Shown piece by piece: positions 11,955 through 39,597 of a DNA stretch of 64,000 nt. The notes under the pieces are model-generated. The model made no database searches, was not told the origin of the DNA, and was given only the letters and a program-made list of their open reading frames with translations. The stretch covers positions 23,546 to 87,545 of IMG/VR virus record IMGVR_UViG_3300025659_000335; one strand, written 5' to 3'. This stretch comes from a virus. The stretch's first letter is position 1, and each line of letters begins with the position of its first letter. Made by a program: the position numbers and the translations under genes.

Positions 11955-11955
11955 T

Positions 11956-13440: not shown

Positions 13441-13832
13441 TCTTGACTACAGTACTTATCGTATTACTAACAGTCTTATTGGTAATCAGGTTTGTAGAAG
13501 TAAAAAAATACAAACAATTGGTGAAGACGTTAGATCTGAAGGTTGATGACCTACAGGAACAAAATAAAAAAGAACATTTCCATAGGAAAAGTTCAGAAGT
13601 CCGCACAGGACAAATGGTTGAAAAGATGCTACCATTTACTAAAGACTTCAAACATAATCCAAGACAAGCTCAATTTTTAGGTAACCCTATTGATTATATT
13701 GTATTTGGAGACGAATGTATTACTTTTGTTGAAGTTAAAACTGGTAAAGCCAGACTTAGCCAGACTCAGCAAAAGATAAAAAAGTTAGTCAATAATAAAA
13801 AAGTTGAATGGGAAGTTATTAGAATAAAATGA
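13437..13832 (+). CDS. Membrane-anchored endonuclease-fold protein related to Holliday junction resolvases
   Basis: Residues 4-18 form a single membrane helix, followed by a coiled segment to about 45. The C-terminal half holds the PD-(D/E)XK core: GNPIDYIVF with the first acid, then VEVKTGKARLSQTQQ with the E-x-K pair. This matches the predicted endonuclease family distantly related to archaeal Hjc/Hjr. It should cut branched or foreign DNA. It overlaps both neighbours by 4 bases. The membrane anchor is unusual for a recombination nuclease but is known in this family. Confidence 0.7.
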   Translation: MILTTVLIVLLTVLLVIRFVEVKKYKQLVKTLDLKVDDLQEQNKKEHFHRKSSEVRTGQMVEKMLPFTKDFKHNPRQAQFLGNPIDYIVFGDECITFVEVKTGKARLSQTQQKIKKLVNNKKVEWEVIRIK

Positions 13833-16564
13833 ATATAGACGTTTTTAGAAAACTTTTTGTTCATAGGCCAGATGTGTATGCTATTCAAACGCCTAATAGA
13901 ACTTATGTACCTGTCCATGAAGATTTAACAGACCGTGTTATATCAGGACACCTTAAAGGTATGGGAACTATAGGGTTATATCAAATTATCCCAGAACAGA
14001 ACACATTAAAGTGGGCTGTTGTTGATATAGATATCAATAAAGATATATTTATTCAAGAGAATTTTGATCTTGATCTTTGGTTACCTGATTTACGAAAACA
14101 AGCAGAACTTATCCAAACAGCTTTAACAGAGCATGAGATCCCGTCCTATCTAGAGTTTTCTGGGTTTAAAGGATACCATGTTTGGATCTTCTTTGATGAA
14201 CCTGTAGCTTCTTCACCAGTGTATGTTGGATTACATAGTATTATGAAAAACATAGAACTAGTTAATGACGGACTACACTGGGAAATATTTCCTAAACAAA
14301 AGTCTGTCAGTGAAGGAAGTATGGGCTCTCTCGTAAAAGGGCCAGAAGGAAAGCACCAGCATTCTGGAAAAGCTAGTGAATTTATTGATACAGTTGATCT
14401 AAAAACTATTGAGTATGCGGATATAAAAAGTTTAATAGCTGCACATAATACCATTGATGTTATCTTTGAAAAATGTTCAGCATTAAGAAACTTACGTACA
14501 AAAGCATTTACTACTGGAGTATTAACTAATGAAGAAAGACTAAACTTAGCATACATATTAATTAATGCTAGTTCAGAATATGATACTCAAGATGGTGAGA
14601 AGTATTTACTTAATAGTATTTTGCCTAAGCTAGGTAATTACAAAAAAGAAACGTCTGAAAAAAATATACAACGAATGAAGGATGCCGTTGGAGGGGCCGG
14701 GTATAAACCAATAACTTGTGCTAAGTTACAAGAAACTGGTATGTGTCCTGGACCTTGTGCTGAGATTGGTACAAAACGTAGTCCAATATATTTCTATAAA
14801 AAAGCTCTAGGATTTAGTGAAGGGGCTTTATTAAATGTAGAAGATCCATTTGATAATTTAATTAGACGTGGGAATAGTTACTATGAACAAAATCTAGGTG
14901 AAGATGGGGCTGCACCTACACTTGAAAGATTGTGTAATTATATTGTTGATTTACAAGAGCGCGTAGTTGTTGATGATGGAACGGGTGACGAATATACATA
15001 TCTAAAAGGTATTATAAAAACAGATGCAGACGGTGTAGCAGCTGCTGAATTTAAAATGCCTCCATCAGACTTTCATGATAACAACGCATTCAAATCACAT
15101 ATAACAGACAAATTAGGAATTGACGGTATTTTTACAAAGATAAATGCCGAACCTAAAATTAGACAATGTATTGCGAAATACAGTAATACTGTAGATAAGC
15201 GAGTAGTATTACAGATGGGCTACAGGAAGGATGAAGAGGAAGATAGATATCCTGATAAGTATATAAGTCCGTCAGTGATCATTGATAAAACAGGCATACA
15301 TGAAAATACCTCGATTGAGTTTGATTTAGAAGATGCTGATGTAGCAAAATATCTAAATATAATAGAAGTAACCAACGAAGAATTTAATGAAGCTAAACAA
15401 GGATTAAATAATCTTCTTTCTTTAAGTGATTGGAATTATACACATTCAGCACTAGCCCACACTATGCTGCCAATTATAGCTCCGTTCTTATCTGGAGAAG
15501 ACACTAAATTTACTTACTTCGTTAGAGGTAACTCTGGTGATGGTAAGTCTTATATAATGAAGTTCTTCCAGAACTTTTATGGAAACTTCACTAACTTAGC
15601 TAGTTGGACCTCTACCTTTGCAGCGCTATCAAGAATAGGACACCTGTTTAAAGATGCTCTGTATGTAATAGATGATTTTAAACGTCGTAATCTAGGTCGA
15701 GCCTATGATCAAGCTTTAACTTTAATGCAGACTTATGCAGATAATACAAGCAGATCAAGAGCACGTCCTGACATGGCAATGCAGAAAACATTTACTATTA
15801 AGGGCTGGTTGGCATGTACTGGTGAGGATACTCCAGATGGAGAAGCCTCCACATTAGCAAGAAGCATTCAAGTAAACTGCCTACCAGGAAAGAAAGATAG
15901 AGACCTTGGTAGAAAAGTAGAAAGTGTAAGTCATCTATTCTCTGGAATAACTGGTCGTTATATACATCATGTATTAAAAACTAATCCATTATTATTTGAT
16001 AGAGCCTTCCAATCATATGAAACATTATTCTATGAAGAGGTAAAAGGCTTACCGAATGATACTCGTATTACTAGAAACATTAGTTTGTTAATGACAAGTT
16101 ACAAATTTATTAGTGAATTCTTTTGGTCGAAAAAAGTATCTGCTGAGAACCAAGAAAAGTTTAAAGAGTATTTACTTTCTAAAATAAAAGAACAAGCAGT
16201 AGAATCGGCAGAGGAGATGTCGTCCGAGAAATTCATTGAGCAGTTGAGTCTTTTAATTGGTACAGAATCAGTAATCCTTTTAGATGATACGACAGTTCCA
16301 GTGTCTTTAACTCAATATGAAAAGGGAAGAATTATAGGATGGAATGATTTAAATAATTCAGAACATACTTATATTATAGGTTCTAGGGCATACGCACTAA
16401 TAAATAGCGCTCTTATGCAACAGAATATGTCTTTAGGCCATAGCTTAAAAGCAATGATGCTTGATATGTATACTAAAGGATATATTAAAGATCAGAAACT
16501 ACAATCACTTATATTTAATAAAAGGAAAATAGATGTGATTGTTTTTAACCAAGGAGTTATTTAG
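13829..16564 (+). CDS. Primase-helicase with archaeo-eukaryotic-type (TOTE-like) primase domain
   Basis: A two-part 911-residue protein. The N-terminal domain has the archaeo-eukaryotic primase signature: D-I-D (66-68) as the metal-binding acids, and SGFKGYHVWIFF (111-122) with His117, both typical of primases from TOTE systems. A cysteine cluster follows near 300 (C-x8-C-x3-C). The C-terminal half is an ATPase with Walker A GNSGDGKS near 570 and Walker B YVIDDFK near 610, of the kind that follows many phage and plasmid primases. It would prime and unwind DNA at the phage fork, in place of a DnaG-type primase, which I do not see in the window. Confidence 0.8.
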   Translation: MNIDVFRKLFVHRPDVYAIQTPNRTYVPVHEDLTDRVISGHLKGMGTIGLYQIIPEQNTLKWAVVDIDINKDIFIQENFDLDLWLPDLRKQAELIQTALTEHEIPSYLEFSGFKGYHVWIFFDEPVASSPVYVGLHSIMKNIELVNDGLHWEIFPKQKSVSEGSMGSLVKGPEGKHQHSGKASEFIDTVDLKTIEYADIKSLIAAHNTIDVIFEKCSALRNLRTKAFTTGVLTNEERLNLAYILINASSEYDTQDGEKYLLNSILPKLGNYKKETSEKNIQRMKDAVGGAGYKPITCAKLQETGMCPGPCAEIGTKRSPIYFYKKALGFSEGALLNVEDPFDNLIRRGNSYYEQNLGEDGAAPTLERLCNYIVDLQERVVVDDGTGDEYTYLKGIIKTDADGVAAAEFKMPPSDFHDNNAFKSHITDKLGIDGIFTKINAEPKIRQCIAKYSNTVDKRVVLQMGYRKDEEEDRYPDKYISPSVIIDKTGIHENTSIEFDLEDADVAKYLNIIEVTNEEFNEAKQGLNNLLSLSDWNYTHSALAHTMLPIIAPFLSGEDTKFTYFVRGNSGDGKSYIMKFFQNFYGNFTNLASWTSTFAALSRIGHLFKDALYVIDDFKRRNLGRAYDQALTLMQTYADNTSRSRARPDMAMQKTFTIKGWLACTGEDTPDGEASTLARSIQVNCLPGKKDRDLGRKVESVSHLFSGITGRYIHHVLKTNPLLFDRAFQSYETLFYEEVKGLPNDTRITRNISLLMTSYKFISEFFWSKKVSAENQEKFKEYLLSKIKEQAVESAEEMSSEKFIEQLSLLIGTESVILLDDTTVPVSLTQYEKGRIIGWNDLNNSEHTYIIGSRAYALINSALMQQNMSLGHSLKAMMLDMYTKGYIKDQKLQSLIFNKRKIDVIVFNQGVI

Positions 16565-16567
16565 TGA

Positions 16568-17326
16568 ATGAAACTTAAGACCATTGCTAGTAGTAGCAGC
16601 GGAAATTGCACACGAGTTAGCTCTGGTAAAACTTCTATACTAATTGATTGCGGTATTCCAAGAAAAAGAGTTTATGAAGATGGCGTTTTTGATATAAGCG
16701 CCATTTTTATTACTCATGAGCATAGCGATCATATAAAAGGTGTTAATGTTTTATATAAGAAAGCTAAATGTAAAGTATATTTACATCGACATGTATATGA
16801 AGCCAGACCTAAACATTTTGAATCTATACCCATAGAGGATATAATGTTTATAGAAGCTGGAGATATTACTACAATCGATGATACTTTTACAGTTGAAGGC
16901 TTTAGTACAAAGCATGACGCAGCATATAGTATGGGTTTTGTAGTTACAGAGATATCTTCGTCAAAGCGCTTCGGATATATGACTGATACTGGGGCTGTAA
17001 CTGCTTTAATAAAAAATAAATTAAAAGAATGTGATAGTTACTTTATTGAAGCGGACTACGACGATGAGCAATTAAAAAAATACGCTGACTACTCAATCGA
17101 ATTAAAAGATAGAATAAAAGGAAACTTTGGGCATTTAAGTACTGCACAAGCTATAGAGTTTATTAAAGAATCTGTTGATTTAGAAAAAGTAAATAATGTA
17201 ATCTTTGGCCACTTAAGTGCAAGAACAAATTCACCAGAACTAGTACAAGCTTCTATTGATGAAGAGTTTCCTAAATATATTAATAAATTCTACATAGCAC
17301 CAATAGACGAAGAGTTAGATATATGA
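16568..17326 (+). CDS. Metallo-beta-lactamase-fold hydrolase
   Basis: A 252-residue single-domain protein with the metal-binding motif H-E-H-S-D-H (50-55). Later ligands fit the fold: MTDTG near 138 and a C-terminal HLSARTNSPELV. The opening SSSSGNCTRV matches the YycJ/WalJ branch of the superfamily, whose members are thought to be nucleases. Placement between primase-helicase and a 3'-5' exonuclease supports a DNA-processing role, but the substrate is not known. Confidence 0.75.
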   Translation: MKLKTIASSSSGNCTRVSSGKTSILIDCGIPRKRVYEDGVFDISAIFITHEHSDHIKGVNVLYKKAKCKVYLHRHVYEARPKHFESIPIEDIMFIEAGDITTIDDTFTVEGFSTKHDAAYSMGFVVTEISSSKRFGYMTDTGAVTALIKNKLKECDSYFIEADYDDEQLKKYADYSIELKDRIKGNFGHLSTAQAIEFIKESVDLEKVNNVIFGHLSARTNSPELVQASIDEEFPKYINKFYIAPIDEELDI

Positions 17327-19812: not shown

Positions 19813-20520
19813 ATGTATGTACCTTTATTTATAACAAGTTTTAATAGACCAGAATTTGTCAAGCCCTCTTTGGAAAGTTTATTTAATTCAAATTTACCAG
19901 AGTGGGTTAAACTTTTTTGGACAGATGATGGCTCAGACGAAGAAACAACTTCAATTATAAAAGAATATGAAGCAAGAGAGTGGACATGTGGTACTGAATT
20001 TACTTTAGCAGAACATGTCGGCATGAGAGTATGTAAGTTAGGCCAGATTAGAAATTGGTTTAATAAACAGAAAACATGCGCAGAATTCTTTCTTGTGTCA
20101 GACTCAGATATGGTGTATGCCAAGAACTGGGTACAGGCGCTAAATCACATATATTATAAATTACCAAATATGGGGCTATTATCTGGATTTAATACAGAAA
20201 CAAATAATCACGCAACAAAAAAAGAAGTTACAGGACTTAGATTAAAACTTTCTATTGGTGGGGCAAACTTTTTAATGGATACTAAACTTTATTTAAGAAG
20301 ACCGTTTCCAATTATAGAAAGAGAGACCCATGAATGGGATTATAGAATGTGTGAACTAGCCCATTCAGAAAAACTTTTAGTCTGCACTACTAACCCATCT
20401 ATAGTGAATCATATAGGTAGGACTGGAGTATACGCTAGAACTGACTACTACGATACAGCAAAAGATTTTATAGGAATAGAAGCTGATAGTTTAAAGGAAT
20501 TAAACATTGGACACAATTAA
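19813..20520 (+). CDS. Family 2 glycosyltransferase
   Basis: GT-A fold with opening PLFITSFNRPEFVKPSLESL, typical of family 2, and nucleotide-sugar-binding acids in LVSDSDMVYAKNW (about 95-107). A D-x-D-like site and HEWDYRMCELA near 175 fit acceptor-side residues. 235 residues, cytoplasmic, no membrane segment. First gene of an eleven-gene glycan island that starts just after a terminator; no promoter is obvious in the 26 bases before it, so read-through or a non-consensus promoter is implied. Confidence 0.75.
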   Translation: MYVPLFITSFNRPEFVKPSLESLFNSNLPEWVKLFWTDDGSDEETTSIIKEYEAREWTCGTEFTLAEHVGMRVCKLGQIRNWFNKQKTCAEFFLVSDSDMVYAKNWVQALNHIYYKLPNMGLLSGFNTETNNHATKKEVTGLRLKLSIGGANFLMDTKLYLRRPFPIIERETHEWDYRMCELAHSEKLLVCTTNPSIVNHIGRTGVYARTDYYDTAKDFIGIEADSLKELNIGHN

Positions 20521-21781
20521 GATTTTTATGGGAATACCTACCATCAATAGGGCAGATTTACTAAATGAGGCTTTAGCTGATTTATCTAAAGTGATGCCAG
20601 ATTTATATAAATTGGTTATAGTTGATAATGGAAACCAATCTATAAAAATACCAGACAACTTAAAAGAAAAAACAGAGATATACAACCCAGGAAAAAATCT
20701 TGGAGTTGCCGCTAGTTGGAACTATATATTAAATGAGGGATTTAAAAACCCAGAAATAACCCATGTTCAACTAACAAATGATGACATAATACCTGGACAC
20801 TCTTTAGAGCAGATTAATTCTATATTTGGCCCCCATAGTGATAATTATTTAGTATTAGGAAGTGCGTTTTCAAATTTTTTTATTTCTAGGGAGTGTTTTA
20901 ATGTTGTTGGGCTGTTTGATGAAAAATTTTATCCAGCATATTTTGAAGACAACGATTATGGCAGGCGCTGCGGTTTAATTAATAAAGGAAGAGTTGCAAT
21001 AAAACTTACTCCTAAAAAAAGCCAGAAATCTTCATCAATAAGAAAAGATCCAAAATTAAATAGAAATTTTTCTAAAAATAGAAATTACTATATAAAAAAA
21101 TGGGGAGGACCCCCCAATAAGGAAAAATATAATATGCCATTTAATAAAATAAACCCTGAAATAGATTTTATACAAAGCTATTATAGTGCATTTAATTCTT
21201 TATTTGAAGTATCTAAAGAATATCTTTTAGAACTATATAGAGAAGACACTTATGGAGGGTATCCAGAAGAACCAGCAGGATCAGCCTGGGAAAGTGAGTT
21301 AAAAGCTCTGTATTGTGCAATTAGGCTAGCAAAACCAAAAAAATTATTAGAAATAGGAAACTTTGTTGGAGTTAGCACAAACCATATGCTAGCCGCTATT
21401 GAAAAAAATGGATTTGGAGAACTACATCTAGTTGATGTCATAGATAGGCTTAATAGAGATAAGCTACATTCTAATAATTTTACACATCATGTGGAAGAAT
21501 CTTTAAATTATTTAGACTCACTACAAGAATTAGATTTTGATTTTATAAGTCAAGATGGAGATCACTCAGAAGATTATGTAAGAAAAGAATTACAAGTATT
21601 TAAAAATAAATCTACAAAAGATTTATATATATGGGGACATGATTATTACGCCAGGATTAGGGCAGGAGTTGGAGTGAAGCAAGCATGGGATAAGGAAAAA
21701 TCAGAATTTACAAAGGTACACCATCTAAAAGATAGCGTTAGCGATTGTGGATTTAGTCTAGCGTTCTTAAAAAGGAAATAA
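20507..21781 (+). CDS. Fusion of family 2 glycosyltransferase and class I methyltransferase
   Basis: Residues 1-200 form a GT-A glycosyltransferase (opening IKIFMGIPTINRADLLNEAL, acids in THVQLTNDDIIPG near 85-97). Residues 255-424 form a class I SAM methyltransferase with the glycine motif LLEIGNFVGVSTNHM near 283 and FISQDGDHSEDYV near 345. The domains are joined by a 50-residue linker. A single protein that both adds and methylates a sugar is plausible. It overlaps the preceding gene by 14 bases. Confidence 0.7.
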   Translation: MDTIKIFMGIPTINRADLLNEALADLSKVMPDLYKLVIVDNGNQSIKIPDNLKEKTEIYNPGKNLGVAASWNYILNEGFKNPEITHVQLTNDDIIPGHSLEQINSIFGPHSDNYLVLGSAFSNFFISRECFNVVGLFDEKFYPAYFEDNDYGRRCGLINKGRVAIKLTPKKSQKSSSIRKDPKLNRNFSKNRNYYIKKWGGPPNKEKYNMPFNKINPEIDFIQSYYSAFNSLFEVSKEYLLELYREDTYGGYPEEPAGSAWESELKALYCAIRLAKPKKLLEIGNFVGVSTNHMLAAIEKNGFGELHLVDVIDRLNRDKLHSNNFTHHVEESLNYLDSLQELDFDFISQDGDHSEDYVRKELQVFKNKSTKDLYIWGHDYYARIRAGVGVKQAWDKEKSEFTKVHHLKDSVSDCGFSLAFLKRK

Positions 21782-21783
21782 CT

Positions 21784-22524
21784 ATGAGACTGCTCGGCAT
21801 AATACACGGATATAATGAAGGTGATTGTTTAGAAAACTCTATTAAATGTCTTTTAGATTCTGGACATTCTGTTCATGTATTCGATCACGGATCAACTGAT
21901 AACACAAAAGAAATAATAACTTCTTTTAAAGAAAGAGTAACCTACGAGTACTTAGATAGAAATAAAATTCATTTTTGGAAAGGACCAAATAATCTTTTTA
22001 ATACAATTTCAAGATTTATAAATTCTAAACAACCATTATATGATTGGGTAACTTGGTTAGATGCTGATGAAATATTAGTACACAAATCTAATACAAATCT
22101 ACAAGAAGAATTATTACATTCTTTTAATTCTGGTATTAAAGTAATACAAACAGAAATAAAAGAATACTGGGTTACTGAAAAAGATGATCCAAGTATTGTA
22201 AATTGTGTAGATAGACAAAAATATTTTTTAAGAAGGTCGCCCGGTAGCTGGGGAGGGATTAATCGCAGCTGGCTATTATCATTAACAGGAAATATGGGAA
22301 GAGGGAAGCATAGAAATCAATCTCAATGGGGAAGAAATGTTAAAATAGATGGAGTTAGCTATGTTATAAATCATTATCCTATAAGATCAGAAGAACATGG
22401 AAAAAGAAAAATATTAGTAGAACGTAATTGGAAAAATAAAGGACATGGTTGTCATTATGATAGCTATCTTAATAATAATTGTAGCCATATAATAAAAGAA
22501 TCTAATTCTTTAGAAAAAGATTAA
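21784..22524 (+). CDS. Family 2-type glycosyltransferase
   Basis: Opening IIHGYNEGDCLENSIKCLLD and VFDHGSTDNTKEI (about 35-47) are family 2 signatures, with the metal-binding WLDADEILV near 93-101. 246 residues, no membrane helix. Two histidine-rich stretches near the C-terminus could bind metal or acceptor. It starts 2 bases after the fusion gene. Confidence 0.75.
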   Translation: MRLLGIIHGYNEGDCLENSIKCLLDSGHSVHVFDHGSTDNTKEIITSFKERVTYEYLDRNKIHFWKGPNNLFNTISRFINSKQPLYDWVTWLDADEILVHKSNTNLQEELLHSFNSGIKVIQTEIKEYWVTEKDDPSIVNCVDRQKYFLRRSPGSWGGINRSWLLSLTGNMGRGKHRNQSQWGRNVKIDGVSYVINHYPIRSEEHGKRKILVERNWKNKGHGCHYDSYLNNNCSHIIKESNSLEKD

Positions 22525-22526
22525 AT

Positions 22527-23159
22527 ATGAATGAACAATTAACATTTACACATAATGCTTGGAAAAGAGAAAAAACTTTAAATAATACAATAAACGTTGA
22601 ACTTAATTATTTTCCAAATTGTCTCCATCATATAGCATACAATGATAAAAAACCTACGGTTCCTAACTCAGCGTCATTAAGCGAGTTTATTACTAGAAAA
22701 AATCATAAATTAGATGCTATGAATGGGTGTATACATGCAATAAAAGGTGGTTTAGAAAAACCATCAGAAATAATTATATTTTCACATGACGATGTCTATT
22801 TAAAAGATATTGATTTATTTAATACTGCTTTAGCATTAATATTTAAAGACCATGATTTTATAGGAAGACGTATTTATGGAGAGTGTGGGAACTTGACAAA
22901 CCCTTATATAATGTTAGAATCTTTTATTATTAAAAAATCCCTTTTAAAAATCTTAGTCAGTAATATACCTGAAGTACACAGTATAGAAGATTTACCAAAA
23001 GATTTAAGAGGCTCTCCAGCTCCAGAAATATTTTTTGGAAACTATATTTTACGTTATAGTAAAAATCCATATTTTTTTGAAAAAGACCAAAATGTTATGA
23101 ATATTCCTGACTCGCTTGGGTATCAACATCATATAAAACCAAGAGGATGGATAGAATGA
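22527..23159 (+). CDS. Putative glycosyltransferase
   Basis: A 210-residue protein with a D-x-D-like element in IIIFSHDDVYLKDI (about 82-95), the usual metal-binding position of GT-A enzymes, but without a clear family 2 opening. Assigned by that motif and by its place within the island. Very AT-rich. Confidence 0.55.
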   Translation: MNEQLTFTHNAWKREKTLNNTINVELNYFPNCLHHIAYNDKKPTVPNSASLSEFITRKNHKLDAMNGCIHAIKGGLEKPSEIIIFSHDDVYLKDIDLFNTALALIFKDHDFIGRRIYGECGNLTNPYIMLESFIIKKSLLKILVSNIPEVHSIEDLPKDLRGSPAPEIFFGNYILRYSKNPYFFEKDQNVMNIPDSLGYQHHIKPRGWIE

Positions 23160-23914
23160 AATTTGCAACACATATACTTGTTTTTAATCAAGACAAATGG
23201 TTAATTAAAAATATAAATAATTCTGGCCCATTTGTTGATAAGATATACATAGCATACAGCGATGTTCCTTGGTCATATAATAAAGAAGCTAGAAAACAAT
23301 TTATAAATAATTTTAATCCTGAAAGTTTAAAAAACAGTCCATATTACGATAAAATAACTTTTATAAAAGGGGTGTGGGATGTTGATGAAGATCAAAGAAA
23401 TGCATGTGTAAGTGCCGCAAAAAAAGATGGTATAGATTTTTTAATTACTCATGACGCTGATGAATTTTATTTTCTAGATCATTTTAAAAATATTATTTCA
23501 TATATAAAAACCAACAGTAACCATGAAGTTTATACAGTAAATTGGATATCTTTTTGGAAAGATTTTAAACACGTTGTTGAAACTGAAGATAACAAAATAA
23601 TTATAGGTCAGCCTGAAATTTGTATTAATTTAAATAAAAATATAAAATTTGCAAGATGTAGAAATCCAGGTAATTACAAAAGACATTTAATTCCTAACAT
23701 ACTTTGCTATCATGCTTCATTTGTATTAACAGATAAAGAATGTTATGAAAAGATCAGTACTTGGGGACATACTCATCAATTTAATCAGGATAATTGGTTT
23801 AAAGATAAATGGTTAAATTGGAATATACATACAGAAAACTTACACCCAATTAACCCAAGTATCTGGAAAAGAGCAATCCCATTTACAGGTAAATTACCAG
23901 AGGTATTACAATGA
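23156..23914 (+). CDS. Putative glycosyltransferase
   Basis: The ATG at 23156 is preferred over 23147 because AGAGG sits 9 bases before it and it gives the 4-base overlap usual here. Opening FATHILVFNQDKWLIKNI and the acids in LITHDADEFYFLDH (near 97-110) fit a GT-A glycosyltransferase of the family 2 clan. 252 residues, soluble. Confidence 0.65.
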   Translation: MKFATHILVFNQDKWLIKNINNSGPFVDKIYIAYSDVPWSYNKEARKQFINNFNPESLKNSPYYDKITFIKGVWDVDEDQRNACVSAAKKDGIDFLITHDADEFYFLDHFKNIISYIKTNSNHEVYTVNWISFWKDFKHVVETEDNKIIIGQPEICINLNKNIKFARCRNPGNYKRHLIPNILCYHASFVLTDKECYEKISTWGHTHQFNQDNWFKDKWLNWNIHTENLHPINPSIWKRAIPFTGKLPEVLQ

Positions 23915-24852
23915 ATATATTATTCCACAGTAACCAACTCTCAGAACGTGGGACAGAGATAGCACTTTTTGATTATGCACATTTTAACGAAACTATGTTA
24001 AATAACAAATCATTTATTATCTGTAAAAACTTATCTGAAGAATCATTAACATATGAAGATTCTGTTACTAAATTTAAAAACCGCTTTACTAATGTTTTCA
24101 CTTATACGACGCACGGACAACTTGAAGATATAATTAAAAACTTAAATATTGATTTTCTATATACAATAAAAGCTGGAATTAATGATGGAGTATACTCCAA
24201 TAAAGTTAAAACTGGAATACACGTAGTATTTCAATACTACCAACCGCATGGAGATGTGTATGCATATATTTCTAAATGGTTATCAGATAAAATGTCAAAT
24301 GGAAAAAATCCTTATGTGCCACACATGATTAATTTACCAAACCATCAAAATAATTTACGTGAAGAATTGAATATACCAAAAACAGCAAGAGTTTTTGGAA
24401 GATATGGTGGAAAAGATACTTTTAATATTCCGTATGTTTTAGAAACTATAAAAAGGTTAGAAACCGAAGATGTTTATTTTATTTTTATGAATACAAATAA
24501 ATTTACATCACAAAAAAATGTTATCTTTTTAAATCCAACTACAGATATGTCAGAAAAAGTAAAATTCATTAATACTTGTGATTGCATGTTACATGCAAGG
24601 TCACAGGGTGAAAGTTTTGGAATAGCTGTTGGAGAATTTTCAATTAAAAATAAACCTATATTAACCTCAACTCAGGGTAGAGATAGAGCTCATTACGAAA
24701 TTCTCGGTGATAAGGGATTATATTATTCTAATGCGCAACAGTTAGAAAAACTTTTAACCTCAGATATAGATTTTAGTCTAAACTGGAATAGCTATTCTAA
24801 TTATAACCCAACTAATATTATGAACACTTTTAAAAAGGTATTTTTATCATGA
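23911..24852 (+). CDS. GT-B fold (family 4-like) glycosyltransferase
   Basis: This 313-residue protein differs from its GT-A neighbours. It has an N-terminal Rossmann-like half and a C-terminal half with MLHARSQGESFGIAVGEF (about 230-247), the E-x7-E retaining-transferase signature (here GES..GE) of family 4. It would use a nucleotide sugar to extend a glycan with retention of configuration. It overlaps both neighbours by 4 bases. Confidence 0.7.
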   Translation: MNILFHSNQLSERGTEIALFDYAHFNETMLNNKSFIICKNLSEESLTYEDSVTKFKNRFTNVFTYTTHGQLEDIIKNLNIDFLYTIKAGINDGVYSNKVKTGIHVVFQYYQPHGDVYAYISKWLSDKMSNGKNPYVPHMINLPNHQNNLREELNIPKTARVFGRYGGKDTFNIPYVLETIKRLETEDVYFIFMNTNKFTSQKNVIFLNPTTDMSEKVKFINTCDCMLHARSQGESFGIAVGEFSIKNKPILTSTQGRDRAHYEILGDKGLYYSNAQQLEKLLTSDIDFSLNWNSYSNYNPTNIMNTFKKVFLS

Positions 24853-25565
24853 AAAATTTTAGACAAGATTTACAAAAATTCGAACAATTTTTAAAAGATG
24901 GAAAACATTTTACCTTTTCTAAATATGCAGATGGCGAGTGGAGAATTTTAGACGGAGATCATATTGATCTTACTAGAAAAGCCAATGGAGAGTTTAAATA
25001 TCAACCAGATAATATAGAAGATGAGCTACGGCGTGCTGAGTTATTAAAATCTTTTCAATATATCCATTCAGATTATTATGTTGGCATAGGGTGTTATTGT
25101 TGTATGGGAAATACCTTTTATAGTATGAAAGATCTAAGTAAACAGCCTGTTGAAAACCTAACTTGGGCTAATCTTTTTGTTAATGGTAACTATAAATATT
25201 ACAGATCAACCCTTGTTCCTCTATTTAATGATTATAAAATAATAATGGTTTGTAATCATAAAGCAAAATTAGATAAACTACCATTTAAAGTTGAAAAAGA
25301 TTTTAGAGTTGGAACTAACGCTTGGCTAGATAATAAAGATCTAGTAAAAGAAATTATAGAATATAGTAAAGACTTAGAAAATTATTTATTCTTATTCTGT
25401 GCAGGGCCTTTTGGAAATATTCTTGCTCATAGGCTACACGAAGCTAACCCTAATAATACCTATCTCGATGCTGGGTCAACTTTTGATGTTGAATTATTTG
25501 GTGGTGGAACTAGGGGATATCTAATTGGTGCCGACACTTTAAAAAAGAAATGTATTTGGAAATGA
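24849..25565 (+). CDS. GT-D-like glycosyltransferase
   Basis: FSKYADGEWRIL (about 23-34) matches the F-x-D/A-G-E element of the GT-D/DUF1792 type, and FCAGPFGNILAHRL near 183-196 followed by YLDAGSTFDVE fits the later part of that fold. Known members transfer glucose onto glycosylated adhesins. 238 residues. Assignment is by motif only. Confidence 0.55.
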   Translation: MKNFRQDLQKFEQFLKDGKHFTFSKYADGEWRILDGDHIDLTRKANGEFKYQPDNIEDELRRAELLKSFQYIHSDYYVGIGCYCCMGNTFYSMKDLSKQPVENLTWANLFVNGNYKYYRSTLVPLFNDYKIIMVCNHKAKLDKLPFKVEKDFRVGTNAWLDNKDLVKEIIEYSKDLENYLFLFCAGPFGNILAHRLHEANPNNTYLDAGSTFDVELFGGGTRGYLIGADTLKKKCIWK

Positions 25566-26422
25566 ACAACATTACAATAGAAAAGAATAAATTATACTTA
25601 GTCACTGGTGGCTCTGGATTTCTTGGCGACAGTTTAATAGATAGAATATTACAACAAGGAGGTTTGGTTAGGGTATTAGCTCGTAATGAGGGGTCTCTAA
25701 TTAAATTAAAAATGAAATATCCATCTATTGAAATATTAACTGGAGATATCTCTAATAGATTTTCTTGTATACAAGCATTAAAGAACGTAAATGGCATATT
25801 TCATCTTGCTGCTTTTAAGCATGTAGGTATGGCAGAAATACAGTCTTTAGAATGTATAAATTCTAACGTTATAGGTTCTAGCATTCTATTAGAAGAATCC
25901 GCAAATATGGAATTAGATTTTATTTTAGGAATTAGTACTGATAAAGCAGCACAAGTTGCTGGAGTTTATGGTGCTTCTAAACTTCTTATGGAAAAACTAT
26001 TTGAGCAGTATGAGAAAATATTTCCAAATACAAACTATAGATTAGTAAGATATGGTAACATTTTATACTCTACTGGGTCTGTTTTATGTAAGTGGAAAAA
26101 ATTAATTGAAGAGAATAAACCAATAACTATTACAGATGGTAATGCTACAAGATTTTATTGGTCAGTAGAACAAGCTGTAGATTTAATATTTGAATGTCTT
26201 AAAAATTCAAAAGATTCTAGACTATATTGCCCTACTATGAAATCTGTATCTGTTAGAAATCTAGCAAAAGCTATGATTAAAAAATATGGAAATAGTAATA
26301 TTAAAATAATTACTATTGGCCTTCAACCTGGAGAAAATATGCATGAAAAAATTCTTAAAGAGGGCCCTTATTCTAATGAAGTTGCACAATACACAATTGA
26401 TGAAATAGTGGAGATGGTATAA
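25562..26422 (+). CDS. UDP-sugar 4,6-dehydratase-like SDR enzyme (PseB/FlaA1 type)
   Basis: The start at 25562 gives an ATGA overlap with the previous gene; an upstream ATG at 25550 adds four residues. NAD-binding TGGSGFLG lies near 16-23. The catalytic region reads STDKAAQVAGVYGASKLLM (about 126-144), where the Tyr-x3-Lys pair and the T-D-K-A element mark the PseB/CapD group that makes 4-keto-6-deoxy sugars from UDP-GlcNAc. RYGNILYSTGSV near 162 is also typical. It would supply a modified sugar donor for the island. Confidence 0.75.
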   Translation: MNNITIEKNKLYLVTGGSGFLGDSLIDRILQQGGLVRVLARNEGSLIKLKMKYPSIEILTGDISNRFSCIQALKNVNGIFHLAAFKHVGMAEIQSLECINSNVIGSSILLEESANMELDFILGISTDKAAQVAGVYGASKLLMEKLFEQYEKIFPNTNYRLVRYGNILYSTGSVLCKWKKLIEENKPITITDGNATRFYWSVEQAVDLIFECLKNSKDSRLYCPTMKSVSVRNLAKAMIKKYGNSNIKIITIGLQPGENMHEKILKEGPYSNEVAQYTIDEIVEMV

Positions 26423-32362: not shown

Positions 32363-34741
32363 ATGAGAATACCGTCCGGTAGATTAAAAGTAATAAACGC
32401 ATTATATGATCTAGGATTTGAAGAAGCAGACTATGACTTACTTAAAAAGACCTCGTTTAAGTTTAAGTCAAGCCCAGTATTACAGTCTGGGGATAGTAGT
32501 TTAAGAAGTCATATAGGGTTTTTATTTAATACAGGAAAAATGTTAGCTTACCATCAGTTTTTACTGGATAATGACTATAACTTTACTTCACAGGGTGACG
32601 TAACAACTGCTATAGCTAATTACGATTGGGCAAAAGAAATTAATCAAGACATAGGTGAACTTTTTGAAACTTTGCCAGAAGAGCAAGTTAAAAGTATAAA
32701 TAAGATGATACCTAAAGGAAAGATAAAATTCTTTTATTCATTGACAAAGACTAATAACTATGGAAGTAACTGTCCTATTATTACTGATAAAGACACCTTT
32801 ATTATTGATTCATTAAAGGATACAGATCTAGCTGATCTTGAAAAGATAAGTAAAATTCAAGAACGATTCTCCAGTTATAACTCATTTCTAGATAGAAACA
32901 GAGGGTACGGAGAGAACAATAATAAATTTCAGTTATTGGGTACCTGTCATTTTAGTAATGCACAGGTTGCTCTATCTTATACAAAAAACTTTTATTTTGG
33001 CAAAGACTCAACTCTGCCAATAAATAGTTTTGGTAATTGGCTCTTAAGCAGCAGGCGTGGATATAATTCTAACGCTTCTGGATTAAAGATAAATGAGATA
33101 GATTTATTTTTAAAAGAATCTTATACAACAAACTTTGATAAGATTACTACTAAAGAGCCTACTCCTGAGCAACTAGAGTTATTAAAAGAAAATAACAAGT
33201 TTAGATACATACATTCAGTATATGAACATCATAACACTAGATATTGTGTAGTCGGTAGCTCAAGTACATTTCCTTATTACAACACTCCACGAATTCATAA
33301 CGCAGCAGAATTTTGTGCAGGAGATTACTTTAGTTGGTTTAAAGTAGAAGCAACTAGTTCTTGGTATGACTACGCTGATGCTGGACACTTAGTATATTAC
33401 AAGCTTGGTCCTGATGGTACTGTGGCAAATAGAGGTAATGATGACCCATTACTAACGCTGGGTGAAGCTGTATTAACAGACCCTGCCCCGGTTATGCTTA
33501 ATAAAGTAATAATCGAAAATTATCTAAAGACAAAGGCTAGTGAAGATAGAGTTGTTGTTTTAGATAATGGTACTTTGAATACTATCTTGAGACTGCACAT
33601 GAAAAAAGAAGAACGCACTCAAAAAGTAGTTCAAAGTAAAAACATAATGACTAAGAAGATAACCAAAGTTATTAATAATTTAGAAACAATAAAGAAAACT
33701 AAATTAAACGGTATTGATATAACTGAGGACTCTATTAGTTACGCAGGACAAACACTTTCTATTGATAAGAATACCTATACAGGGCACGACAGATGGCTTA
33801 ATGATGTATTTGATAAGATGTTAAGAAACACAGATCCTAATTCCATTGACTGGGATCTTGTTTACGCAACATTTTTAAGTTATTTAAGTCTGGGTAGTAA
33901 GAGCACCGCTGGTACAATAGGTAACGTTAATTTTAATCTTGAGATAAAATCATCCACCTCTACAAGAGGTGTGACCTCTACAAGATACTACATTAATGAA
34001 AATCGTATTAATAAGAATGAAGTTGATGAATGTCTCGAGCGAGCTTTGTGCTTTGAGACCCAGGAGGACTTCGATTATTTCCTAGACTCGGTTAGAAAAT
34101 GTTCGTTAAAATTACATAAATTACTGCACCGTGGTATTAATATTAGTGGAGTAAGTGATGTAATGGGGTCATCTCCAGGACATAATAATTACAATCAATT
34201 CTCTATAAAATTCCCGATTACTAGAAAAGGTCGTACAACCTCTATGGTTCTAGATGGGAACTCATACAGAATTCGTAATACAAATAGATTCTTGACAATA
34301 TCAAATAAAAGAAGTATTTTAGATGTGGTAGATCTACTACTTAATGAAAAAATAGTAGAGGGTGTAACCGTAGACGATGTTAAAGATATTATAACTGCTG
34401 GACGAAAAGCTTATGTTGAAGCTTTAAAGAAGAGTCAGGAACTACTAACTGACACCATTAAGTTATTTAAATTAACAGAGGAAACAAAAGACACCACTAG
34501 AGGAAGAGTCAAAGGGTATAAAATAAAAGGCAAAATAAGAACTTACTTTGTTGAAAAAGGATCATTAGAGCCTGACTCTAATAATCACAATGATTGCAAG
34601 GTCTTTGACTACAATTCTGGAAAGTATATTTGTATTGTTGATAAAGGAAATGCTGCTCAAGTTGGTATGGATAGGCTAGTAAATAGATTATATGCACTAC
34701 ACAACGATGACTTAGTAGCAAAAGAAATAACTACACTTTAA
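32363..34741 (+). CDS. Large protein of unknown function ahead of the ubiquitin-like cassette
   Basis: 792 residues without membrane segments, Walker motifs or a family I know. About 400-460 is lysine-rich and helical. The part near 550-640 is richer in beta strand and includes a serine/glycine-rich loop. Cysteines are scattered, with pairs near 565-575 and 760-770, but none sits in a clear E2-type context. The stop codon is 15 bases before the ubiquitin-like gene, so the four genes are probably co-transcribed. It could be the target, an adaptor or a divergent conjugating factor; none of these is shown. Confidence 0.5.
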   Translation: MRIPSGRLKVINALYDLGFEEADYDLLKKTSFKFKSSPVLQSGDSSLRSHIGFLFNTGKMLAYHQFLLDNDYNFTSQGDVTTAIANYDWAKEINQDIGELFETLPEEQVKSINKMIPKGKIKFFYSLTKTNNYGSNCPIITDKDTFIIDSLKDTDLADLEKISKIQERFSSYNSFLDRNRGYGENNNKFQLLGTCHFSNAQVALSYTKNFYFGKDSTLPINSFGNWLLSSRRGYNSNASGLKINEIDLFLKESYTTNFDKITTKEPTPEQLELLKENNKFRYIHSVYEHHNTRYCVVGSSSTFPYYNTPRIHNAAEFCAGDYFSWFKVEATSSWYDYADAGHLVYYKLGPDGTVANRGNDDPLLTLGEAVLTDPAPVMLNKVIIENYLKTKASEDRVVVLDNGTLNTILRLHMKKEERTQKVVQSKNIMTKKITKVINNLETIKKTKLNGIDITEDSISYAGQTLSIDKNTYTGHDRWLNDVFDKMLRNTDPNSIDWDLVYATFLSYLSLGSKSTAGTIGNVNFNLEIKSSTSTRGVTSTRYYINENRINKNEVDECLERALCFETQEDFDYFLDSVRKCSLKLHKLLHRGINISGVSDVMGSSPGHNNYNQFSIKFPITRKGRTTSMVLDGNSYRIRNTNRFLTISNKRSILDVVDLLLNEKIVEGVTVDDVKDIITAGRKAYVEALKKSQELLTDTIKLFKLTEETKDTTRGRVKGYKIKGKIRTYFVEKGSLEPDSNNHNDCKVFDYNSGKYICIVDKGNAAQVGMDRLVNRLYALHNDDLVAKEITTL

Positions 34742-34756
34742 ATAAAGAGAAAAACT

Positions 34757-34981
34757 ATGGCAAAAGAAAAAGAAATCACATTAAAGATCGTATCCGCTGA
34801 AGGTCACACAGAGTTTCAAGGCACTGGTGCAGAGGCCCTTGCAGAGTTGCAAGAGCAATGCACAAACAACAGTAAGTGGGCTTATGTAGATGGCCGTCAG
34901 GTTAATCCTGACACTGTGGGCATTGAAGATCTTTTAAATGCTGAAGACATCACTTTAGCTAACACACTAATTGGTGGCTAA
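34757..34981 (+). CDS. Ubiquitin-like small protein ending in Gly-Gly
   Basis: A 74-residue protein that fits the beta-grasp order: strand 1 ITLKIVSAEG (7-16), strand 2 HTEFQGTGA (17-25), helix AEALAELQEQC (25-35), strand 3 KWAYVDGRQVN (40-50), then EDLLNAEDITLANTLIGG (57-74). The last part lines up with the ubiquitin tail, and Gly-Gly is the exact C-terminus, so no processing is needed before activation. The stop overlaps the start of the JAMM peptidase gene (TAATG), and an E1-like enzyme follows. Taken together this is a protein tag activated at its C-terminal glycine. The target is unknown; sulfur carriage is an alternative. Confidence 0.75.
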   Translation: MAKEKEITLKIVSAEGHTEFQGTGAEALAELQEQCTNNSKWAYVDGRQVNPDTVGIEDLLNAEDITLANTLIGG

Positions 34982-35436
34982 TGGAAGTTTTCATTACTCC
35001 TGAGATAGTTCAGGAGTTAAAAATATATGGCGATTCAAGCCCCGTGCACGAGGTGTGCGGGGCTTTTATCGGCACTAAAATCAAAAACGAATGGCACATA
35101 GAAAAGTTTATACCACTTACCAATGTAATAGCAGGACTCAATGGTAAAGAAGATTACCAGCCTCACCCAGAAGAATGGTTAAATGTTATAAAAGAGACCA
35201 CTCATTATAACGATGATGCTAAGTATGATTTTATAGGGGTGTACCATACACATCCTAATAACAAACCATATCCCTCAATAACAGACGTTCGAGAGGCCGG
35301 TTATAAGGGAATATACATTATATATTCTCCTAAATATAAGACCTTTGGTGTTTACTATTATAATGGTGATCGGGAACATCTTATGTGGGTACCAGCTATA
35401 TGTCATGACATAGATGAAAGAGAACTAGTAACTTGA
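34981..35436 (+). CDS. JAMM/MPN metalloprotease (JAB family, deubiquitinase-like)
   Basis: All JAMM residues are visible in 151 residues: Glu24 in HEVCGAF, His89 and His91 in YHTHPNN, Ser99 and Asp102 in PSITD, with the correct spacing H-x-H-x7-S-x2-D. JAMM enzymes cut isopeptide or peptide bonds after the terminal glycine of ubiquitin-like proteins. Beside a Gly-Gly protein and an E1 enzyme it probably removes the tag or edits conjugates. A tail-assembly role, as for the JAB domain of lambda gpK, is less likely because no tail genes are near and no NlpC domain is present. Confidence 0.85.
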   Translation: MEVFITPEIVQELKIYGDSSPVHEVCGAFIGTKIKNEWHIEKFIPLTNVIAGLNGKEDYQPHPEEWLNVIKETTHYNDDAKYDFIGVYHTHPNNKPYPSITDVREAGYKGIYIIYSPKYKTFGVYYYNGDREHLMWVPAICHDIDERELVT

Positions 35437-36029
35437 AAAAAATATTAATTGTAGGTGCTGGTGGAATAGGAAGTTGGCTTGCTGCTAATTTATACGACTT
35501 AATTTGTTGGGAACAATTACCTGACAGTAACGTAGAAATAACTATAGCAGACGATGACCACGTAGAAGCAAAAAATATTTCTTATCAAAATTTTGAAGAC
35601 GAAGATATAATGGACCCTAAAGCAGCAGTATTACATGCTAGATATGGGTTTAAAGCTTTAGAAAAAAGAATTACAGATGAAAGAGATTTATACGGATATG
35701 ATTGTATTGTAAGTGCCGTGGACAACCCAAAGTTCAGGCGGCTCTTATTTGAATATTGTCATGTTTATAGTCGAACCCATTGGATCGATTTAAGATCAGA
35801 AGGTAGAACAATAGCTGCCTTTACTACATCTGAAAAGAATACTTTGGAAAAAATGTTAGATACATTAGGTCCAGAGGATGCGGAAGATGGAAGTTGTCAG
35901 CTACAGTTTGAGCTAGATAATGATATCATCCAACAAGGAAATAAAATTGTGGCTGTGATAGGATCTCAGTATATCCTTAATTGGCATAGATTTGACACTA
36001 GTCCACCCGTATTTTCTTTTAATTTTTAA
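35433..36029 (+). CDS. E1-like/ThiF-family adenylating enzyme
   Basis: It starts at TTG 35433, overlapping the JAMM gene stop as TTGA; the glycine loop follows at once (ILIVGAGGIGS, 4-14), so no later start fits. D40-D-D-H-V-E-A-K-N48 matches the E1 acidic motif, but the usual Arg before Gln is Tyr51 (family N-L-x-R-Q; here N-I-S-Y-Q). DPKAAVL (61-67) supplies the conserved lysine and AVDNPKFRR (95-103) the D-N motif. Cys155 in DGSCQ is the best thioester candidate. At 198 residues it is a minimal adenylation domain. It should adenylate the Gly-Gly end of the small protein. Confidence 0.8.
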   Translation: MKKILIVGAGGIGSWLAANLYDLICWEQLPDSNVEITIADDDHVEAKNISYQNFEDEDIMDPKAAVLHARYGFKALEKRITDERDLYGYDCIVSAVDNPKFRRLLFEYCHVYSRTHWIDLRSEGRTIAAFTTSEKNTLEKMLDTLGPEDAEDGSCQLQFELDNDIIQQGNKIVAVIGSQYILNWHRFDTSPPVFSFNF

Positions 36030-37297: not shown

Positions 37298-38551
37298 ATG
37301 TTTATTTCAAAACCAGAAGATGTGCCAATAGTAGAGAGGTTTATAAAAACTAGAGGTATAATCGGGTATGATGTAGAAACTAATGGACTAGATCCTCATA
37401 CGAATGAAGTACTTCTAATACAAATAGGCACCGAGCATACTCAGTATGTACTAGATGTTGCGAGACTTGGTACTAGTATATTTCCTGTTCTAGAATTACT
37501 AGCAAAGCCTGATACTGCTAAAGTAGCACACAACTCTAAGTTTGACTATGTTATGACCAGGGCTAATTTTGACATTGATCTTTTAAATATGAAAGACACA
37601 TTATTAGCAGATTACTTGTTGACACAGGGTAAAAACATACCAAAACATAGTTTTGACGCAGTAGTAGATAAATATCTTGGAGAGACTGTCTCTAAGGATT
37701 TACAGAAAAGCTTCGTAGGTATGAAGTTTGGTGATCAATTTTCAGAGGAACAAATTAAGTATGCTGGTGATGACGTTAAATACTTATTACCGCTGCATAC
37801 TAAATTGGACAAGTTTATCAGACAAAGAGATATGAGTAAACTAGCCCATTTAGAAAATTCTACTGTGCGGGCTACGGCTGAGTTAGAATTGAATGGTATA
37901 CACTTAGATAGAAAAAGATGGCTTGCCTTAAAAGATATAGCATTAAAGGCCGCTATTGATTTAAAGGTTGAGCTGGATGAAGCGTTCGCTCCACACTGCT
38001 CAGTAGATCTTTTTGGGTCACCTACGGTAAATTATGATTCTCCTAAACAAATGTTGGAATTATTGCCTAAGATATGTAATGTAACATTAACCTCTACTAA
38101 TAAACAAGAACTTGAAAAACAAAATCATGCAGTAATTAAACTATTACTAGAGTACAGAAAACGAAAGAAATTAGTTACTACATACGGACAGGAATTTCTA
38201 GATAATAATGTAAACTCTGTAACAGGTAGAGTTCATTCTAGTTTCTGGCAATTAGGTAACACAGACTCTGGTAGATATGCCAGTACCAAACCTAATATGC
38301 AGAATATACCAGCAGGTGCTGTATATCGTGCTGCTTTTACAGCACAAGATCTAGACTATAGAATAGTCGCAGCGGACTTCGCAAATCAGGAACTTAGACT
38401 ACTAGCTCATATGAGTGAAGAAGATAAGTTTATTGAATGTTTGAGAACTGGAAAAGATTTGCATGCCTACTGTGCCGCTATCCTGTTCAATAGAAACTAT
38501 GATAGTATTACTAAAGAAGAGCGTGATGCCGCTAAAGCCATCAATTTCGGT
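37298..38551 (+). CDS. polA: Family A DNA polymerase, exon 1 (3'-5' exonuclease and part of polymerase domain)
   Basis: 418 codons. YDVETNGLDP (24-33) is Exo I; AHNSKFDYV near 76-84 is Exo II; YAGDDVKYLLPL near 158-169 is Exo III. ADFANQELRLLAHM near 356-369 is polymerase motif A. The exon stops inside motif B: R-x3-K-x2-N-F-G ends at 38551, after which only M-N-N-E and a stop follow in frame. Joined to 39094-39597 it gives a 585-residue polymerase without a 5'-3' exonuclease domain, the usual phage form. Confidence 0.9.
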
Positions 38552-39093
38552 ATGAATAATGAATAAAATAAATAATGCCGAAAACAAACTCGCCAAATTC
38601 GGGGAAACCTCAGCACATAATGGTGGTGGCAATCCCGAGCTAAGCCTGAAGAAGCAGGAAAGTGTAGAGACTAGACGACGAGTATGTAAAAAGTGTGACA
38701 ATGTACTTCCAAAACGTAGACAAAAATTCTGTTCAGATAAATGTAGAAACGCATTTAACTCTCACGCGTGGAGAATTAAAAAAGGTTTAATTAAAAAACC
38801 ATATAGTGGTTCTGGTGGTAATCAATCAGGAAAAGATAACCACATGTATAAAAACGGAATAAGAAATTTTAGTTTACGGGCTTTTGAATATTATGGTAAA
38901 ACTTGTAATCGATGTGAGTCAGAAAAAAATATCCTGACTCATCATAAAGATCATAATCGACAAAATAATAATATAGAAAATTTAGAAGTTCTATGTAAGA
39001 AATGTCATCAAAAACACCATTGCACACGAGACCAAGTAACAGGTCGTTACATAAAGGGATAGTCCGGGCCTCTGGTAAACCAGAGGGTTCCTG
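38552..39093 (+). other. Group I self-splicing intron in the DNA polymerase gene
   Basis: The conserved core is readable: P near 38594-38609 (ATTCGGGGAAACC), Q at 38628-38646 (AATCCCGAGC), R at 38661-38677 (GTGTAGAGACTAGACG), S at 39053-39066 (AAGGGATAGTCC), and a P9 hairpin at 39070-39086. P1: exon end TTTCGGT (38545-38551) pairs fully with GCCGAAA (38577-38583), with a U-G pair at the splice site. P10: AATAAT (38571-38576) pairs with the start of exon 2, GTTATT (39094-39099). The intron ends in G (39093). Splicing restores N-F-G-V-I-Y-G-M-G across motif B. Length 542 bases; contains an HNH ORF. Confidence 0.92.
38559..39062 (+). CDS. HNH homing endonuclease in the intron
   Basis: 167 residues. 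CKKC (43-46) and CSDKC near 58-62 form a zinc finger for DNA contact; CNRC near 117-120, THHKDHN near 127-133, then LEVLCKKCHQKHH form the HNH nuclease. The only in-frame ATG is at 38559, so the reading frame crosses the P, Q and R elements, and its stop TAG lies within the S element. The enzyme should cut intron-less copies of the polymerase gene and spread the intron. Translation must precede or escape splicing, or begin further in from a non-ATG codon. Confidence 0.85.
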   Translation: MNKINNAENKLAKFGETSAHNGGGNPELSLKKQESVETRRRVCKKCDNVLPKRRQKFCSDKCRNAFNSHAWRIKKGLIKKPYSGSGGNQSGKDNHMYKNGIRNFSLRAFEYYGKTCNRCESEKNILTHHKDHNRQNNNIENLEVLCKKCHQKHHCTRDQVTGRYIKG

Positions 39094-39597
39094 GTTATTT
39101 ACGGAATGGGTGCTAAGAGATTATCAGCTGTTCTAAAAATTTCAATACCTGAAGCATCTGGCTTATTAAGATCTTACTTCTTAACCTTCCCTAAAATCGC
39201 TAAACTAATTAAAGATTTTACCGACAGTGCAGAAGATTTAAGATACGCATTTAGCCCGCTTGATGGTAGACGAAGAGATTTAAGTTCAATGGATTTTGAT
39301 AATCCAAAACATCATAGCCATGCTATGAACATTGCTAAAAACTTACCATTCCAGGGTACTGGTTCTAGTGTTACTAAACGAGCTTTATGGAAAACGAGTG
39401 AATCAATTAGAGATAACAAATATGATGCTATGATAATCAACGCAGTTCACGACGAAATTTTATTAGAAGTACATAAGGATGAAGTTGATGAAGTCGCGGG
39501 CATGTTATCATTAGAAATGATAAAAGCGTTTAATCATTATGCTCCGTCAGTGCCTATGGAAGTAGAACCTGTGATCGGAGACTGTTGGATTCACTAA
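39094..39597 (+). CDS. polA: Family A DNA polymerase, exon 2
   Basis: 167 residues. It opens V-I-Y-G-M-G-A-K-R-L, finishing motif B of the fingers helix, continues through the palm and holds motif C, INAVHDEILLEV near 123-134 (His-Asp-Glu), with the second catalytic aspartate. Read alone it would start at ATG 39106, but no Shine-Dalgarno site precedes that codon and the fragment would lack half the active site. Expression depends on splicing. Confidence 0.9.
   Translation, partial: VIYGMGAKRLSAVLKISIPEASGLLRSYFLTFPKIAKLIKDFTDSAEDLRYAFSPLDGRRRDLSSMDFDNPKHHSHAMNIAKNLPFQGTGSSVTKRALWKTSESIRDNKYDAMIINAVHDEILLEVHKDEVDEVAGMLSLEMIKAFNHYAPSVPMEVEPVIGDCWIH

Follow-up and report, generated by a model that had tools for sequence, protein, structure and literature searches.

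Organization of the locus

Four genes read in one direction occupy positions 32363–36029 of a 64,000-nt stretch of viral DNA (the window; IMG/VR record IMGVR_UViG_3300025659_000335, record positions 23,546–87,545). The 87.5-kb virus record includes the window, and a 179,902-base contig carries the same genes at 99–100% identity. The features of the cassette are as follows.

32363..34741, + strand: 792-aa protein, proposed E2-like transfer enzyme; N-terminal part variable, C-terminal domain (residues ~680–792) conserved
34757..34981, + strand: 74-aa ubiquitin-like protein (the tag) ending in L-I-G-G; Gly73–Gly74 codons at 34973–34978
34981..35436, + strand: JAMM/JAB metalloprotease, 151 aa; Glu24, His89, His91, Ser99 and Asp102
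35433..36029, + strand: minimal E1/ThiF enzyme, 198 aa, TTG start; GAGGIGS at residues 8–14, Tyr51, Lys63, Asp97 and Cys155 in SCQ

An open-reading-frame check recovered the three genes at 34757–36029, their named residues and the TAATG and TTGA overlaps between them just as the original prediction had described. Its three-gene unit does travel together; the unit is nonetheless one of four genes and begins at 32363, with the stop codon of the 792-aa gene 15 nt upstream of the tag gene.

Judged by its predicted genes, the virus looks like a contractile-tailed phage: the window encodes a tail sheath (E 5.2e-13) and a terminase (E 7.5e-58; both PHROGs), on the strand opposite to the cassette. By eye, we recognized a sigma-70-like gene at 36482 and, at 29531, one for ribonucleotide reductase; the DNA polymerase encoded at 37298 has matches to phage polymerases. 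The polymerase gene (37298–39597) is seemingly interrupted by a short HNH-type gene (38559–39062) that by eye resembles a homing-endonuclease insert, and in a related locus (L007, 1575–4952) the ribonucleotide reductase-like ORF is longer than its counterpart in the window (1125 compared with 653 aa) and by eye has an intein-like insert in frame. The window also encodes IMP dehydrogenase and a poly(A) polymerase-like protein (10569–13440), an AEP-TOTE primase (E 1.8e-28) and, after it, a protein of metallo-beta-lactamase fold whose match to the Anti-Pycsar protein Apyc1 is weak and below cut-off (13829–17326), and a glycosyltransferase with polysaccharide-synthesis proteins (20507–26422).

The cassette in two groups of viruses

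Searches of a viral collection with the E1, the JAMM, the 792-aa protein and the tag returned two groups of loci, here termed the phage group and the TFIIB group. A survey of gene order in related viruses, suggested with the original prediction, found the phage group to be arranged as 792-aa family, tag, JAMM and E1. Tag, JAMM and E1 are all present in 29/29 loci fetched with the 792-aa family, and this family is present in all 11 close-group loci fetched with the E1 (L014–L024), as well as in two fetched with the JAMM (L076 and L079). One separate viral contig repeats the order tag, JAMM, E1, the proteins being 45, 43 and 54% identical, respectively, and retains the Gly-Gly and Tyr51. Spacing is tight: over 19 phage-group loci with distinct E1s, the 792-aa gene and the tag gene are separated by −4 to 49 nt, and the JAMM and E1 genes by −34 to 40 nt. 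Five phage-group loci carry an extra gene of 226–273 aa between tag and JAMM, two of them alike (L094 and L095); by eye only, the extra proteins are DNA-binding-like.

The second group consists of contigs with TFIIB-like genes, three members having been scanned against Pfam. Here the tag gene lies upstream of the E1 gene by a median of 5.8 kb. We assembled 75 such loci in which tag and E1 are present, the 792-aa family is absent and the E1s are distinct, dropping loci that were cut, and defined protein families by single-linkage BLAST clustering. A protein of ~422 aa and a TFIIB-like protein occur in 75/75 of these loci and the JAMM family in 67/75, and in 42/75 no more than 40 nt separate the end of the TFIIB-like gene from the E1. 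Among the best 80 of 99 tag-fetched contigs, four of which belong to the phage group, 26 measure 84–103 kb and two exceed 170 kb; an E1 is found in 72/80 and a JAMM match in 64/80, three being cut before the motif. In the eight of these 80 loci without an E1 the sequence stops 0.6–6.2 kb after the tag, and in the eight with an E1 and no JAMM it stops within 1.1 kb of the E1. Among 59 viral loci fetched with the E1, a JAMM match was found in 59/59 and a tag match in 44/59; in the 15 in which no tag was detected, no E1 is farther than 5.6 kb from where the stretch begins, which fits cut contigs, unproven locus by locus.

Profile comparisons indicate that all four parts are common to both groups. 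In hhalign, phage-group and TFIIB-group profiles align at 98.5% for the tag, 100% for the E1 and 96.9% over 100 columns for the C-terminal domain of the 792-aa family against that of the ~422-aa family, with unrelated controls below 1%; the JAMM comparison reached 82% over 31 columns, from seeds picked by motif. A search of 50,697 phage records returned no match to one TFIIB-type tag (E ≤1) or to one ~422-aa protein (E ≤0.01). The TFB gene of the TFIIB-type contigs fits Magrovirales (PMC10768690, PMC12999244), and these contigs are probably magrovirus-like viruses of archaea, an assignment that we infer, since no named magrovirus matched. A contig binned as Maricaulis has TFIIB-like, E1, JAMM and clamp-loader-like genes, the lowest E value for the last being to a haloarchaeal tailed virus among the 10 phage records listed of 1,837.

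Two cellular contigs with relatives of the E1 carry parts of the set. In a Methanoperedens contig, a 712-aa member of the 792-aa family overlaps the E1 gene by 4 nt, which supports the link between this family and the E1; neither tag nor JAMM was detected in its 20.5 kb. Downstream of this E1 (L192, 10640–11140), a 166-aa protein has by eye a tag-like stretch and a C-terminal G-K-G-G, with no match to the tag profile. A 5-kb Pacearchaeota contig has the E1, the other three parts being undetected.

The diglycine tag and the JAMM protease

The tag gave no convincing family match in Pfam, PHROGs and NCBIfam profile scans. An AlphaFold2 model built from 31 sequences (pLDDT 86.5) has the order bb-a-bb-a-b, a good beta-grasp, and Foldseek places it near SUMO, NEDD8 and Caldiarchaeum ubiquitin in the PDB (E 0.002–0.004, best 0.0022; probability 0.99–1.00; TM ~0.5), with no match below E 0.001. 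In VIA-align, Z does not exceed 5.6 and the top row is the B-raf RBD, so we read the resemblance as likeness of fold and not as kinship. The ubiquitin-like beta-grasp fold expected of this small protein is thus borne out, as a prediction, by AlphaFold2, Foldseek and VIA-align.

Only four columns are invariant in the 31-sequence alignment: G16, W41, G73 and G74. The Gly-Gly is found near the end of 92/92 distinct tags over all loci, the window included, with a mild bias in that count because the tags were chosen with a profile that contains the Gly-Gly columns. As had been anticipated, it is conserved alongside the JAMM and the E1; no relative was found that has both enzymes and a tag without Gly-Gly. 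What follows it varies. Eighteen of the 92 tags stop at the Gly-Gly and the rest run 1–9 residues beyond. Among 18 distinct phage-group tags, 15 have no further residue, two have one and one has three; among 74 distinct TFIIB-type tags, 47 have two, 21 have one, three have none and three have 7–9. Hence 68/74 TFIIB-type tags extend 1–2 residues past the Gly-Gly, in the manner of a ubiquitin precursor, and the variability of these residues fits a propeptide that is removed. The longer tails of 7–9 residues in a few TFIIB-type tags (L117, L127, L130 and L138) are acidic.

The JAMM has a solid family match (Prok-JAB, E 1.4e-13). Its best NCBIfam model is the haloarchaeal desampylase (E 6.8e-17; 61.6 bits against a cut-off of 130), and PADLOC JAB models also match it (best E 5.5e-9). 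Glu, His, His, Ser and Asp are all present in 17/17 phage-group rows, including that of the window. In TFIIB-type JAMMs, His, His, Ser and Asp are found in 29/29 aligned sequences, whose seeds were picked with that motif (the profile was seeded with H-[ST]-H-P...D), and the Glu could not be placed in the alignment; one such JAMM had no PADLOC match and no JAMM match in the PDB. The protease probably also trims the tag in the TFIIB-type contigs, and propeptide trimming would give a reason for its constancy besides any removal of tags from targets.

A JAB domain beside a beta-grasp protein recalls the I/K pair of phage lambda, in which such proteins would serve virion assembly and not conjugation, and the best PHROG match of the JAMM is indeed a tail-protein family (E 5.6e-8). 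Lambda-type clusters, as described in PMC1779556, comprise the tag, a JAB/NlpC protein and TAPJ; here, the constant companion is an E1, and the sheath and terminase genes of the window lie on the other strand. We therefore rejected a lambda-type tail pair and regard tail assembly as very improbable.

A minimal E1 with a tyrosine in place of arginine

The 198-aa enzyme has a ThiF/MoeB-type Rossmann core with the nucleotide loop, Asp and Lys that are features of the E1 superfamily (ThiF, E 1.8e-15). Its best NCBIfam model is PRTRC_ThiF (E 9.4e-13; 48 bits against a cut-off of 144.75), the ThiF and MoeB models match below their own cut-offs, and its profile retrieves Uba1, MccB, Cap2, the NEDD8 E1 and MoeB from the PDB. 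The candidate catalytic Cys155 lies in GSCQ, and SCQ is kept in 100/101 distinct E1s (19/19 in the phage group and 81/82 of the TFIIB type), the exception being cut by the end of its locus.

The Arg of the N-x-x-R-Q motif is absent, with Tyr51 in its place (N-I-S-Y-Q). This substitution, flagged from the start as possibly unusual chemistry, is confirmed; it is no oddity of this phage but a trait of the family, as Tyr is found in 61/62 distinct E1s (59 scored by script and two read by eye) and Asn in one, among the best 80 of 99 tag-fetched loci. The count was made on tag-fetched loci, as the 59 E1-fetched loci came from a pattern containing S-Y-Q-N and are biased. Tyr also occupies the site in the cassette-family E1s from Methanoperedens and the Pacearchaeota bin. 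At the same position of the alignment, the E1s of phages ME3, KLEB27-3 and Arash have Arg, as does one E1 relative that we label, by our own assignment, TcdA-like; two crAss-like E1s have Gly. A tree was also built; we claim no single clade from it, because its bootstraps are unsettled, its branches are long and the crAss rows fall within the larger side.

The E1 weakly matches PADLOC E1–E2 models (best E 2.3e-5), which, together with the PADLOC JAB matches of the JAMM, raises the prospect of counter-defence: a protease and a decoy tag directed against host Bil or type II CBASS, with no conjugation target of their own. PMC12660748 reports many JAMM-like proteases in Borg elements, which its authors suggest as a possible answer to host SAMP-based defence. 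A decoy, however, would need neither its own E1 nor a constant 792/422-aa partner, and the whole set is retained in two virus groups; we consider this explanation improbable.

A constant large partner with a candidate E2 domain

The original prediction saw no evident E2. This is probably wrong: the 792-aa gene upstream is found constantly with the other three, and weak evidence from structure and motif marks the C-terminal domain of its product as E2-like. The protein has an invariant Cys757 (codon 34631–34633), and this Cys is conserved in 19/19 sequences of the 792-aa family and in 75/75 of the ~422-aa family. The 19 aligned members of the former read Y-[IVC]-C-I-V-D around it, and among the 75 of the latter G-P-I-C-I-D-N is the commonest form. 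E2 enzymes have G-x-I-C-L-D at the catalytic Cys.

The C-terminal domains of the two families align with each other; either one compared with the N-terminal part of the other family stays below 1% in hhalign. Over their whole length the families reach 90.8% with a score of 60.8 (90.9% and 61.4 in a second run), and when the 792-aa family was compared with 59 families of the TFIIB group, the best of the other 58 scored 26.1. In HMMER, the ~422-aa profile against 21 sequences of the 792-aa family gave a best E of 5.4e-7, to a cut copy of the window's own gene, and the reverse search a best E of 2.2e-4.

The structural evidence comes from a model of the 792-aa protein with a pLDDT of 68.8 overall (76 at residues 751–760 and 57 at 761–770). 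Its predicted order is a helix at 670–701, strands between 706 and 757, Cys757 and a helix at 770–780. In VIA-align, 15/50 rows fall on residues 687–792, all with Z ≤4.5; among them are the UEV domain of TSG101 (Z 4.1, rmsd 4.2, 93 residues) as well as inner-kinetochore, Mediator and Fanconi-complex chains, which we take to be RWD-like, and two ribosome chains. Foldseek found nothing significant for this model in the PDB (best E 0.21), the two families had no convincing sequence match in Pfam, the PDB and PADLOC, and a profile of eight E2 family D sequences aligned to them at ≤0.3% in hhalign. On the model and the motif, we lean slightly towards a C-terminal domain that is E2-like in structure, of our claims on structure the least secure.

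The partner also bears on the main rival reading, in which the set would be a sulfur carrier: the E1 would make a thiocarboxylate on the tag as sulfur donor for a small molecule, tRNA or DNA, and the JAMM would trim the precursor. Sulfur-transfer operons that combine a ThiS/MoaD-like protein, a JAB protein and an E1-like protein are described in Iyer 2006 (PMC1779556), and the ThiF and MoeB matches of the E1 point the same way. By contrast, no sulfur-mobilizing or thiolating enzyme was found among 17 window proteins scanned against Pfam, and the constant large partner, whose single invariant Cys sits in an E2-like setting, speaks against this reading as well; it is chiefly because of this partner that we prefer conjugation and rate sulfur transfer as unlikely.

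A proposed viral conjugation pathway

The predicted tag fold, the Gly-Gly with its extensions, the catalytic motifs, the partnership of the genes and the four-part homology are computational results. We think it probable that the genes at 32363–36029 form a virus-owned, reversible ubiquitin-like conjugation pathway, for which we infer the following chemical steps, E2 role and targets. On most TFIIB-type tags, the JAMM would first cut off the 1–2 residues after the Gly-Gly. The small E1, with ATP, would activate Gly74, which would probably be held as a thioester on Cys155; the tag would then move to Cys757 in the E2-like C-terminal domain of the 792-aa protein; choice of the target may fall to the variable N-terminal part of that protein. 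The tag would be attached to lysines of target proteins, and the JAMM would take it off again.

Several points weigh against conjugation: the E1 is without the N-x-x-R-Q Arg; the E2 candidate has no significant Foldseek or sequence match and the model of the 792-aa protein is weak; the Glu of TFIIB-type JAMMs is unaligned; and the Methanoperedens and Pacearchaeota relatives are without a detected tag or JAMM.

As a guess, the most likely targets of the conjugation pathway are transcription or replication proteins of the virus or host, because a TFIIB-like gene is present in all 75 TFIIB-type loci, because the window has sigma-like, polymerase and reductase genes, and because the transcription factor TBP2 is a target of the haloarchaeal SAMP system (PMC4895103). 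More broadly, and tentatively, since we place it somewhat short of an even chance, tailed viruses of bacteria and archaea may share a complete ubiquitin-like pathway of their own, consisting of a precursor tag, a minimal Tyr E1, a new E2 family on proteins of 400–800 aa and a JAMM, and during infection use it to modify the machinery of transcription or replication.

To our knowledge, prokaryotic ubiquitin-like conjugation systems are mostly cellular, and several are anti-phage defences; here, the pathway belongs to viruses. If the proposal is true, it would provide a small four-protein conjugation system, add an E2 family, and allow one to test directly what viruses gain from protein tagging. 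The occurrence of the set in the phage group and in TFIIB viruses, often beside a TFIIB-like gene in the latter, points to a testable class of targets, and would bear on the movement of protein tagging between viruses, plasmids and cells.

Comparison with known systems

That phages carry genes for ubiquitin-like enzymes is not in itself new. Vibrio phage D69, Salmonella phage Arash and Bacillus phage KLEB27-3 have PRTRC-like sets, made up of a JAB protein, an E1 and a below-cut-off E2 family D match, to which relatives are also found on plasmids; E1 and JAB-like genes occur in crAss-like phages too. Upstream of such JAB-like and E1 genes, one crAss-like phage gene (L188, 264–944) encodes an N terminus that by eye is ubiquitin-like. 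Next to the E1 gene of phage ME3 lies a small gene that we considered as a tag and rejected, since it has no family match and by eye does not look like a tag. A published account of the present cassette was not found in the open-licence literature.

Like the PRTRC cassettes of plasmids (ParB-related, ThiF-related), to which the original prediction had pointed, the present cassette has a JAB protease, an E1 of the superfamily to which theirs belongs and a separate Cys protein; on the PRTRC side, every one of the eight aligned E2 family D proteins conserves the Cys. It differs in that its tag keeps the Gly-Gly and matches no PRTRC model, and in its E1, which has Tyr where those of ME3, KLEB27-3 and Arash have Arg. 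Membership was rejected: the E1 falls well below the curated PRTRC_ThiF cut-off, and at E ≤1 neither the tag nor the 792-aa protein matched the PRTRC_C type or PRTRC_B/E2 family D.

HcyS/HcyD/HcyF and CysO/Mec+ are sulfur carriers in which the C terminus of the tag is trimmed, with a JAMM and an E1. The cassette resembles them in its JAMM, its E1 and its tag, the C terminus of which is probably trimmed in most TFIIB-type relatives, but has in addition the constant large partner with an invariant Cys, and none of the 17 window proteins scanned against Pfam is that of a sulfur-metabolism gene.

Bil is an anti-phage system made up of the BilA tag, the BilB E2, the BilC protease and the BilD E1, which modifies a phage tail protein. 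The parts list would be equal if the 792-aa protein is an E2, three parts being present and the E2 a candidate only; the Foldseek matches of the tag include the bacterial E1–E2–Ubl complex 8tyz (rank 48, E 0.037). Unlike Bil, the present cassette is virus-borne, and its E2 candidate is large, unmatched in PADLOC and without a convincing Pfam match.

The haloarchaeal SAMP/UbaA/HvJAMM1 system likewise has a beta-grasp tag, an E1 and a JAMM, the desampylase being the best NCBIfam model of the cassette JAMM. That system is cellular, however, the viral E1 has 198 aa compared with 270 positions in the UbaA model, and the available part of PMC4895103 names no large Cys partner for it. What sets the present cassette apart is the diglycine tag, often with a propeptide, the Tyr E1, the new large partner and the spread over two groups of viruses.
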